Shown here: positions 19,273 through 37,421 of the stretch, one piece after another
Layout of the letters: every line of letters starts with the position of its first letter
How positions within the stretch are numbered: the stretch's first letter is position 1
Assembly (NCBI RefSeq): GCF_014596745.1
Contig: NZ_JABTCF010000013.1
Coordinates: forward strand, 62,001-126,000
DNA: 64,000 nucleotides
Direction of reading: 5' to 3'
Source: Maribacter aquimaris
GTDB lineage: Bacteria > Bacteroidota > Bacteroidia > Flavobacteriales > Flavobacteriaceae
Notes under the pieces: model-generated
What the model was told of the DNA's origin: nothing
Databases searched by the model: none
The model's input: the letters and a program-made list of their open reading frames with translations, nothing else
Program-made: the position numbers and the translations under genes

Positions 19273-19289
19273 AAAAATGTTATGAAAGT
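19273..19289 (+). promoter_or_regulatory. Copy D of the shared sugar-locus motif, upstream of the 19371 kinase
   Basis: AAAAATGTTATGAAAGT matches 13 of 17 positions of AATAAGTTTTTGAAAGT, the motif found upstream of 25170 and, with small changes, of 21511 and 36994. It ends 81 bp before the start codon, like the other copies. It is followed by sequence resembling the GAAAGT-N6-ACTTTC inverted repeat of copy B. Confidence 0.55.
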
Positions 19290-19314
19290 TTTAATATTTC
19301 ATATACTTTCAATT

Positions 19315-19342
19315 ACTTTGTAATATACAATAGTTACAAAGT
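19315..19342. promoter_or_regulatory. 9-bp inverted repeat upstream of the 19371 kinase gene
   Basis: ACTTTGTAA (19315-19323) and TTACAAAGT (19334-19342) are exact reverse complements with a 10-bp spacer, 28 bp before the start codon. It lies between the shared sugar-locus motif and the gene, a natural place for a repressor site or leader hairpin. No binding protein can be named. Confidence 0.5.
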
Positions 19343-19370
19343 TTTTAAAGGTTAATTAAAATATATTCAT

Positions 19371-20279
19371 ATGGTACTTTCAGTCTGTCCAAATCCGTCA
19401 ATTGATACTTATGCATGGTTGCAAAGCTTTGAGATAGGTCAATCAAATCGTATTGATCGGCTAGATGAATTTCCGGGAGGGAAAGGTGTCCATGTGGCAA
19501 TGGCCCTGAAAGAGTTGGGTAATCCTGTATCACTTTTTGCCAATTGGGCGGGAAATAATGGGGAATGGATCAAAAGTGCCCCGCAACTCCGTAATGTCCA
19601 AATACAGGGGAATCAACTAAAGGGAAACAATAGAAAATGCTATACGTTCAGGTCCACGGATAAAGCATTGGATAATACGGAATTGTTAGAGCCCGGTCCT
19701 GAAATGACTACCGGGGAATGGAATCAGTTTCTTTTGGAATTTCAAGTAGCGGTAAAGGCCAGCGATTTAGTCTGTCTTTCCGGCTCATGGCCAAAGGGTG
19801 CCCCAGAGGACGCTTACCTTCAGTTGTTGGAAATCTGCAATAAGGAAGGAAGGAAGGCCATCTTGGATTGTTCGGGCATACAGTTGGAAAATGCCTTAAA
19901 GACCACTTTTTTCGGACTGCATATCAACGAGCACGAAGCACTAAGTACTTTTGGGACCAAAGACCACATGGAAATACGCAACCAGTTAAGGAATAGGGTT
20001 TCATTAATAGCCATTACCAAGGGAAAGGAAGGACTTTTTCTACACACCGATGAACAATCCGTACATGCCAACGTGGTCATAGACGAGGTTAAGAGTACCG
20101 TTGGGAGTGGGGATTGCCTAACGGCTGGAATCGCCAATGCGGTATTCAAGGGGATGTCGCTTCAGGAAATCGCTAAATATGGTGTGGCCTGCGGGGCAGC
20201 CAACTGTTTGAATGAGGATTTGGGCATCTTGAAATTAGAGGATGTAAACCAACTCTTGCCTAAAGTCAAATTGACTTAG
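19371..20279 (+). CDS. 1-phosphofructokinase/tagatose-6-phosphate kinase-like PfkB kinase
   Basis: Phosphorylates a sugar phosphate, giving a 1,6-bisphosphate or similar product; the substrate is inferred. The 302-residue protein has the FruK/LacC-type N terminus (VLSVCPNPSIDTYAWLQSFEIGQSNRI), the FPGGKGVHVAMALKELG substrate/dimer motif, and a C-terminal STVGSGDCLTAGIANAV that carries the catalytic Asp of the GxGD anion-hole motif. This subgroup includes 1-phosphofructokinase and tagatose-6-phosphate kinase. The convergent neighbour is an AgaS-like isomerase, which can yield tagatose 6-phosphate, so a tagatose-6-phosphate kinase role is plausible. It has its own upstream regulatory region. 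Confidence 0.85.
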   Translation: MVLSVCPNPSIDTYAWLQSFEIGQSNRIDRLDEFPGGKGVHVAMALKELGNPVSLFANWAGNNGEWIKSAPQLRNVQIQGNQLKGNNRKCYTFRSTDKALDNTELLEPGPEMTTGEWNQFLLEFQVAVKASDLVCLSGSWPKGAPEDAYLQLLEICNKEGRKAILDCSGIQLENALKTTFFGLHINEHEALSTFGTKDHMEIRNQLRNRVSLIAITKGKEGLFLHTDEQSVHANVVIDEVKSTVGSGDCLTAGIANAVFKGMSLQEIAKYGVACGAANCLNEDLGILKLEDVNQLLPKVKLT

Positions 20280-20309
20280 GAAGAGTTGGTTTATAGAACT
20301 TTAGTGAAC

Positions 20310-36800: not shown

Positions 36801-36994
36801 TGGTCAACGGTGATCGAATAGTCCCCGTCGAACGTGGATGAAACACCGTTGTTGGTTCCTTTGACCAAGACATTGACACCCGGCAGGGGCACACCTTCCG
36901 AGGTCACCATTCCGGTAATCGTTTTTTCTTGCGCGAATCCTGCCAGCGAAAAGAACAGGGCAAAAAGCGAAGTGATTAAAAATTCTTTTTTCAT
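33899..36994 (-). CDS. susC: SusC/RagA-family TonB-dependent outer-membrane transporter
   Basis: TonB-dependent importer that pairs with SusD. The 1031-residue protein has a signal peptide ([22 protein letters not shown]), a carboxypeptidase-like regulatory domain ([35 protein letters not shown]), the SusC TonB-box region ([24 protein letters not shown]), a plug domain with [37 protein letters not shown], and a 22-strand-type barrel ending in ...[12 protein letters not shown] with terminal Phe. No N-terminal anti-sigma-binding extension is present, so regulation by an ECF sigma/anti-sigma pair is unlikely; the promoter instead carries the shared motif near 37080. The symbol is a family name. 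Confidence 0.96.
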   Translation of the reverse strand: [1031 protein letters not shown]

Positions 36995-37054
36995 ACTAAA
37001 AAGTTTGTTTGGATTAGTTTAAATAAGTTATTGAAAAAATTAACATTATTATAA

Positions 37055-37092
37055 CAAAGCTATAAAAACATAAATACTTTCACAAACTTATT
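37055..37092 (-). promoter_or_regulatory. susC promoter with shared motif (copy C)
   Basis: On the minus strand AATAAGTTTGTGAAAGT (37076-37092) contains TTTG (37083-37086), then 20 bp and TAGCTTTG (37055-37062), an exact TAnnTTTG element. The -7 element ends 61 bp before the susC ATG. The 17-mer differs from copy B at one base. Confidence 0.72.
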
Positions 37093-37390
37093 TTTAAAAT
37101 TTCGAAATGTAATTTAAACTTGTGTGGGTTTTATTGATAAGAAATAGTGAAAATCCGCTCCAAAATAGATGGTGAATTCGTAGGATATTCATATATGATG
37201 CCGTTTTAAAACATTGAAAATAAAGTAGATAATAAAAATTTAAATTAAGAATAATTCGGGATTACACAAATTGAAAAAGATGTTAGGGTTGATGATAAAC
37301 GGAGTGTATTTCATCATTTTTTAATTAATTTGATAAAATATCAGGTTATAAATAAGTAAAAAATAAGTAAAAGAAAGTTGATAGAAAGGT

Positions 37391-37421
37391 TTTGAAAGAT
37401 TAAATACAATCCTTATTTTTG
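37391..37421 (+). promoter_or_regulatory. Promoter-like sequence for the PfkB-aldolase operon (motif copy E, partial)
   Basis: TTTG (37391-37394), a 19-bp spacer and TATTTTTG (37414-37421) match the Bacteroidota promoter exactly. The -33 part reads GGTTTTGAAAGA, sharing TTTTGAAAG with the other sugar-locus promoters but not the upstream AATAAG half. The predicted leader to the 37543 start is about 115 nt. Confidence 0.5.

Follow-up and report, generated by a model that had tools for sequence, protein, structure and literature searches.

The described system closest to the locus reported here is the aga/gam (kba) regulon of Escherichia coli, where the DeoR-family repressor AgaR is linked to agaS and to a tagatose-bisphosphate aldolase gene and binds DNA of the agaR/kbaZ region (PMC3668189, of which part of the text was available). 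An AgaR-named regulon for N-acetylgalactosamine (GalNAc) has been predicted in Shewanella by comparative genomics (PMC3223726, available in part), and the streptococcal regulators AgaR1 and AgaR2 resemble AgaR in name and pathway but belong to another family, GntR/HutC, with palindromic sites (PMC4694137, accessible portion). The literature on AgaR/AgaS regulons, in its accessible portions, yielded no AgaR regulon in Bacteroidetes: a study of gut genomes treats AgaS as a GalNAc signature and, in the text available, mentions no AgaR regulator (PMC5583593), nor do the available sections of PMC12596196, on Bacteroides thetaiotaomicron, and of PMC5507952. Here we analyse a sugar locus in a 64,000-nucleotide stretch of the Maribacter aquimaris genome (the window; contig NZ_JABTCF010000013.1, positions 62,001 to 126,000), in which a DNA motif recurring upstream of several genes is, judging from sequence analysis, very probably the operator of a locus-encoded AgaR that controls the sugar locus and one unlinked amino-sugar operon. 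In Bacteroidetes, the regulators usually associated with glycan loci are of the SusR-like, hybrid two-component or extracytoplasmic function sigma types. What is predicted here is a regulon of a familiar kind, DeoR/AgaR, in surroundings new to it: the SusCD locus of a flavobacterium, with an unlinked operon as a second member.

The DeoR regulator that the first-pass annotation had placed in the locus scores as an AgaR: it passes the cut-off of the NCBIfam model NF040755 (285.1 bits against 260), as do its relatives in other genomes (277-288 bits in L034, L036, L040 and L044; 262.5-265 in L047 and L050; L numbers denote loci), and it combines the domains HTH_DeoR (PF08220) and DeoRC (PF00455). 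The agaS gene is divergent to agaR in all 13 related loci (L034-L046), and a kbaY-like gene is present in the flanks covered in seven of them (L035, L038, L040, L042, L044-L046). The window protein is 39% identical to E. coli AgaR, with the recognition-helix region VTIRNDL common to both, and the agaR/kbaZ intergenic DNA of E. coli K-12 contains CTTTCGTAAAACTTTCGTTTCATTTCG; GAAAG/CTTTC words, spaced there by roughly one turn of the helix, give it a possible likeness to the window motif.

The same annotation had described a shared 17-bp motif, and its positions held up. The 17-mer AATAAGTTTNTGAAAGT is exact, on the minus strand, upstream of the tat-type gene (AATAAGTTTTTGAAAGT, 25273-25257) and of susC (AATAAGTTTGTGAAAGT, 37092-37076); it has one base fewer between its halves at the agaS-like gene (AATAAGATTTGAAAGT, 21598-21583, minus) and is weak at a kinase gene, where AATAAG is absent and only GTTATGAAAGT is kept (AAAAATGTTATGAAAGT, 19273-19289, plus). 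The distance from motif edge to start codon, given previously as about 70-87 bp, measures 72 bp at agaS, 87 bp at the tat-type gene and 82 bp at both susC and the kinase gene, and the interval from the TTTG inside the motif to TAnnTTTG, counted on the sequence, is 19 bp at agaS and 20 bp at susC, as had been claimed. What had to be given up is the fixed 17-mer as the recognition unit, since agaS requires a one-base deletion and matches with two mismatches occur at background level (see below). The unit consists instead of (T/G)AAG half-sites in pairs or arrays, spaced by roughly one turn of the helix and best seen as AAGNTTNYGAAAG (the core). Similarly, the supposed partial copy at the PfkB promoter (37391) turned out to be a phased array, in which five AAG half-sites have their ends at 37356, 37367, 37377, 37388 and 37398, with spacings of 11, 10, 11 and 10 bp. 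The associated -7 boxes are TAACTTTG at agaS (21568-21561, inside the operator), TAGCTTTG at susC (37062-37055), TATTTTTG at pfkB (37414-37421) and a degenerate TATATTTA at the tat-type gene (25243-25236). Because agaS and agaR diverge from either side of the agaS operator, autoregulation of agaR is possible.

Within the one genome the statistics for single sites are modest; cross-genome conservation carries the case for the motif. When the susC promoters of the source genome and of L088, L089 and L090 are aligned, 18 consecutive columns, AAAATAAGTTTGTGAAAG, are invariant (column-shuffle p<=5e-5 for the block), whereas only 61 of the 321 columns are invariant overall; the SusC proteins are 75%, 60% and 59% identical to that of the source genome, and the promoter flanks are quite different. 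This four-row alignment left out L087, which is very close, and L091-L094 (51-54% identity), which are without the motif; the nine susC homologs matched include L095 (40%), which was left aside, so that eight were examined. The motif stands upstream of susC in all four orthologs of at least 59% identity (L087-L090), each on the contig that carries agaR. The whole-genome ortholog searches, those for susC and the kinase among them, did not include L038.

Counterparts of the agaS operator can be aligned in 10 other genomes, the half-sites standing around a central agaS -7 box. This alignment, A1, covers 10 of the 13 related loci and omits L034, which is very close, and L045-L046, which could not be lined up over the stretch selected. 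A model built from the 10 genomes, without the source genome or Maribacter, has the agaS operator as its sole strong match in the source genome (E 7.7e-9), the next-best match having an E-value of 0.056 (150 of 9613 candidates scored). As a finder of other members, this whole-operator profile was unhelpful, since it finds agaS only; in the window the pfkB, tat-type and susC sites rank second, third and fifth, at E 0.34-1.3. The arrangement GAAAG(13-16)TAnnTTTG occurs outside open reading frames (ORFs) in nine of the 13 related loci, and at agaS in L034, L036, L037 and L044. Conservation at orthologs, which the annotation had proposed as a check, is thus seen for susC, in orthologs of at least 59% identity, and for agaS, but at the orthologs of tat/eamA, pfkB and the kinase the motif is found in some genomes only. 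Upstream of tat/eamA the pair points toward the gene in L037 (where the tat-type ortholog carries AATAAGTTTGTGAAAGATAAAAAACTTTCATATATTTG), L041 and L043, and in the opposite direction in L036; L035 has both a site at the kinase gene and a pfkB array similar to the window's. Among seven kinase-gene matches, L107 and L108 show the site, which in L035/L108 reads GGTTATGAAAGATTTTATATT, L112 has the variant AAAGGTAACGAAAG, and the other four show nothing clear. Separately, an AgaR-type half-site with a TAnnTTTG box was seen at L038:11149 and L042:11025, after agaR and before an unannotated stretch preceding pfkB, where there is probably a further target operon.

The geometry of these sites raises the question of whether the conserved block is a repressor site or an unusual promoter element, such as an extended -33 element for a particular sigma factor. 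A -7 box follows GAAAG by 13-16 bp in 13 of the 16 promoters examined (12 with exact TAnnTTTG and one, the tat-type promoter, with one mismatch; in L041 and L043 the distance was counted from the upstream GAAAG), and this near-fixed distance, together with the TTTG within the block that fits a -33 element, is what a promoter element would show. We nevertheless consider that interpretation very improbable. In 400 kb of background from the same genome, GAAAG occurs 13-16 bp upstream of one of 82 non-coding TAnnTTTG boxes and the paired form upstream of none, the single paired copy in this background being inside an ORF, compared with three of eight such boxes in the window and two of five in the C21 stretch described below; within the limits of that 400-kb sample, the element is therefore specific to these loci. 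In addition, the half-site arrays at pfkB and agaS reach beyond a -33 element, flanking the -7 box on both sides at agaS, and the locus proteins scanned match no sigma or anti-sigma family, with a sigma-54-type response regulator encoded at 47175-48539.

The reach of the predicted operator beyond the window can be seen from the core, AAGNTTNYGAAAG, which has 27 matches in the 4.86-Mb genome, 20 inside ORFs of at least 80 amino acids (aa) and seven outside. Five of these seven lie in A+T-rich promoters: three in the window, at the tat-type gene, susC and pfkB, and two at an unlinked amino-sugar locus, one in each of its divergent promoters (C21:256827 and 257153). The other two (L134, L137) are not followed by any clear gene. 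A reversed control pattern gave 21 matches, every one inside an ORF. The core was defined after the window sites were known and after the C21 matches had been found with the 17-mer (with one and two mismatches), and the C21 sites alone are out of sample for the original 17-mer motif. In the genome scan suggested earlier, to look for concentration in the locus, exact promoter matches fall in the window locus and the C21 amino-sugar locus only, and the degenerate 17-mer does not rise above background. On one side of the C21 promoters are genes for a Gfo/Idh/MocA protein, a 3-keto-disaccharide hydrolase, a NagA-type deacetylase (TIGR00221, 227.7 bits, cut-off 225.65), an Nramp-type transporter and a NagB-like deaminase (153.3 bits, below the cut-off of 236.9); on the other are a sulfatase and a glycoside hydrolase family 31 (GH31) enzyme close to solved GH31 alpha-galactosidases. 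As the genes scanned in the window's locus include no NagA-type match, C21 could supply the deacetylase step. The C21 site pair is also present in the close relative Maribacter L141.

A number of observations weigh against control by AgaR, and they concern the statistics, the relatives and the regulator itself. Among the first, the 17-mer with up to two mismatches has 44 matches in the genome against 43 for the reversed pattern, which is background, and an unweighted test for AAG pairs 10-11 bp apart is significant at pfkB only (p=0.001), the other four members having p-values of 0.08-0.25; the earlier statement that elements recur about a helical turn apart holds for the (T/G)AAG half-sites, at 10-11 bp, but finds support in this test at pfkB only. 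Both results speak for a chance similarity of A+T-rich promoter DNA, a view that we regard as very improbable in light of the 18-column susC block, the 10-genome agaS footprint and the concentration of exact promoter matches in two amino-sugar loci. The 17-mer has only two exact matches in the genome, both in the window's sugar locus; of the four with one mismatch, one is an amino-sugar operon promoter, two are inside ORFs of at least 100 aa, and the fourth (C21:435331) is outside ORFs with no ORF of at least 100 aa within 350 bp. The 24 two-mismatch matches checked include 16 inside ORFs, the kinase site, and three more outside ORFs at unrelated places, where an ORF begins 3, 9 or 200 bp further on; this check took in 30 of the 44 matches, and three others were covered by a 13-mer search (L129, L132, L138). 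A phased half-site score, compared with local shuffles, gave p<=0.001 for agaS|agaR and for susC|pfkB as one stretch, p=0.015 for the kinase and p=0.014 for the tat-type site, with weights picked after the sites were known and susC scored only jointly with pfkB; one of 13 control intergenic stretches also reached p=0.018. That control stretch, at 50785-50911 of the window, is nominally significant and was not counted as an operator.

With regard to the individual sites and to related genomes, the kinase site is the weakest of the set, and the -7 box at the usual distance is absent there, at the L035 kinase ortholog and at L035:13662. Four of the eight susC homologs examined, those of 51-54% identity, lack the motif, and by coordinates two of them, L092 and L093, are on the contig of agaR. 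The idea of one DeoR regulon joining genes on both strands, put forward in the annotation, is supported by the AgaR cut-off, by susC and agaS and by the exact promoter matches confined to two amino-sugar loci, and is qualified by these homologs, by the kinase site and by the half-site nature of the unit. Exact core copies outside ORFs are present in only eight of the 13 related loci, and two of the 11 copies in those loci are inside ORFs, the other nine being outside. No paired site was found outside ORFs around the nagA/gfo operons of four more distant relatives (L181-L184), so that membership of C21 rests on the source genome and the close L141; moreover, nagA clustered with nagB has been read as a signature of N-acetylglucosamine (GlcNAc) (PMC5583593, in the text available), and the C21 nagA and nagB-like cluster may serve GlcNAc rather than GalNAc. 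Across 299 genomes of the family, AgaR orthologs (E<=1e-90) occur in four and the exact 16-mer in four, the two co-occurring in the source genome only; the exact word is therefore not fixed among AgaR carriers, and the association lends no support beyond the source genome. By coordinates, two of the three other AgaR genomes are L040 and L041, whose agaS footprints in A1 have looser half-sites. Elsewhere in the family the 16-mer is inside an ORF (L179), has no 80-aa ORF within 400 bp (L176) or lies 9 bp before a 313-aa ORF (L177), with no TAnnTTTG near it in the flanking stretches inspected. In a second AgaR group, about 50% identical, the DNA upstream of agaS in six loci shows TTTCG-type words in some and no clear array. 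AgaR orthologs, in four of the 299 genomes with the source genome included, are patchily distributed, which suggests that the locus has been gained and lost.

As for the regulator, the genome encodes two further DeoR-type paralogs, 40% (C27) and 29% (C26) identical to AgaR, and the sites could be real operators of one of these. The best model for the C27 paralog is also AgaR, at 237.6 bits and so below the cut-off, and, as this paralog is as close to the window protein as E. coli AgaR is, the AgaR name discriminates weakly. Assignment of the operators to a paralog is still very improbable, because the C27 gene (L075:6452-12209) adjoins glycerol-type genes, namely an FAD-dependent oxidoreductase with an alpha-glycerophosphate oxidase domain, an FGGY kinase and an MIP channel, and has a different repeated word, GTTTTGTTTCGTTTTAT, in its own upstream DNA, and because in other genomes the operator adjoins agaR-agaS; the C27 paralog is probably GlpR. 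Finally, the AgaR motif of Shewanella is reported to have nothing in common with that of E. coli (PMC3223726, in the part available), and operator likeness is accordingly not a defining trait of AgaR. In Maribacter polysiphoniae, AgaR (L034:10001-10783) is almost identical to the window protein (94%) and most differences are near the C-terminus, possibly marking a short recombination tract.

Taking the window motif as the AgaR operator, the predicted protein would recognise (T/G)AAG half-sites that recur every 10-11 bp or so and face the same side of the helix. In the promoters of agaS, susC, tat/eamA and pfkB these putative half-sites overlap the core region, immediately ahead of a -7 box of TAnnTTTG type, so that bound AgaR would block RNA polymerase. 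By analogy with E. coli AgaR, where such control is established, and from the positions of the sites, repression most likely comes about because AgaR covers the core promoter, and a phosphorylated intermediate lifts it: once an amino-sugar or tagatose phosphate accumulated, it would bind the DeoRC domain, AgaR would be released, and SusCD uptake, glycoside cleavage, AgaS, the kinases and the aldolase would be switched on together, with the same operator presumably controlling the two divergent C21 promoters (C21:256.8-257.2 kb). The AgaS-like protein, LacC-like kinase, class II aldolase and Melibiase-family enzyme would point to galactosamine or GalNAc, processed by a tagatose-phosphate route. 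The locus differs from the E. coli regulon in its proposed targets, among them SusCD, FG-GAP proteins and a Melibiase-family enzyme, and in its TAnnTTTG-type promoters; in addition, no phosphotransferase system family was matched among the locus proteins scanned, and a distant nagA-type operon carries a predicted site. A wider proposal, for which the arguments seem to us evenly balanced, is that a single switch, an intracellular phospho-sugar sensor of the AgaR type, governs both an entire flavobacterial SusCD glycan locus and an amino-sugar operon unlinked to it. This sensor would act through GAAAG/AAG arrays that are in phase with the helix and stand at a constant distance from the -7 box of Bacteroidetes, with an operator word common with E. 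coli AgaR across phyla. If true, a DeoR/AgaR-type repressor over a SusCD locus would make the regulon, and perhaps the substrate, predictable from sequence, and a definable operator would link the distant nagA-type operon to the locus. The locus would also offer a simple test of whether Bacteroidetes and enterobacteria have retained the same AgaR operator word.

Table 1. Predicted operators and genes of the AgaR-associated sugar locus, in window coordinates unless another locus is named
Feature	Position	Strand	Basis or remarks
agaS operator	21538..21602	-	half-sites 21593, 21584, 21574, 21553, 21543 (minus strand); 40.5 bits, model trained without source genome
susC operator, AAAATAAGTTTGTGAAAGT	37076..37095	-	18 invariant columns, 4 genomes
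tat-type/eamA operon operator	25244..25273	-	AATAAGTTTTTGAAAGT and inverted ACTTTCA
pfkB-operon operator	37351..37399	+	five AAG half-sites, 10-11 bp apart
Kinase-gene operator, weak candidate	19273..19316	+	GTTATGAAAGTTTTAATATTTC and three minus-strand half-sites (19316, 19306, 19296)
C21 amino-sugar locus	L074:3511-12816 (G000:C21, ~251.5-260.8 kb)		unlinked; predicted AgaR-type operator in both divergent promoters
agaR, DeoR-family repressor, proposed regulator	21710..22495	+	NCBIfam NF040755, Pfam domains
Hexose kinase, LacC/1-phosphofructokinase type, tagatose-6-phosphate kinase candidate	19371..20279	+	TIGR03168 201.7 bits, below cut-off 216.4
agaS-like sugar isomerase/deaminase	20360..21511	-	TIGR02815 348.8 bits, below cut-off 529.2
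EamA-family permease (22725-23612) and protein without family match (23632-25170)	22725..25170	-	
Two FG-GAP/ASPIC-UnbV proteins, SusD, SusC	25299..36994	-	
PfkB-family kinase, class II aldolase, amidohydrolase, Melibiase-family glycosidase	37510..42442	+	

The enzymes of the locus are identified with varying firmness. Solved relatives of the AgaS-like protein are named tagatose-6-phosphate ketose/aldose isomerase, and the class II aldolase exceeds the cut-off of TIGR00167 (236.3 bits against 215.6). The top solved relatives of the Melibiase-family glycosidase are an alpha-galactosidase and an A-type blood alpha-D-galactosamine galactosaminidase (E 8e-67 to 7e-65). In Maribacter L034, another Melibiase-related gene (10941-13091), 28% identical, lies between agaR and eamA, a place where the window has none. 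The 512-aa protein of the tat/eamA operon has no Pfam, NCBIfam or PDB sequence match, and it is 71-97% conserved in L034, L037, L041 and L043.

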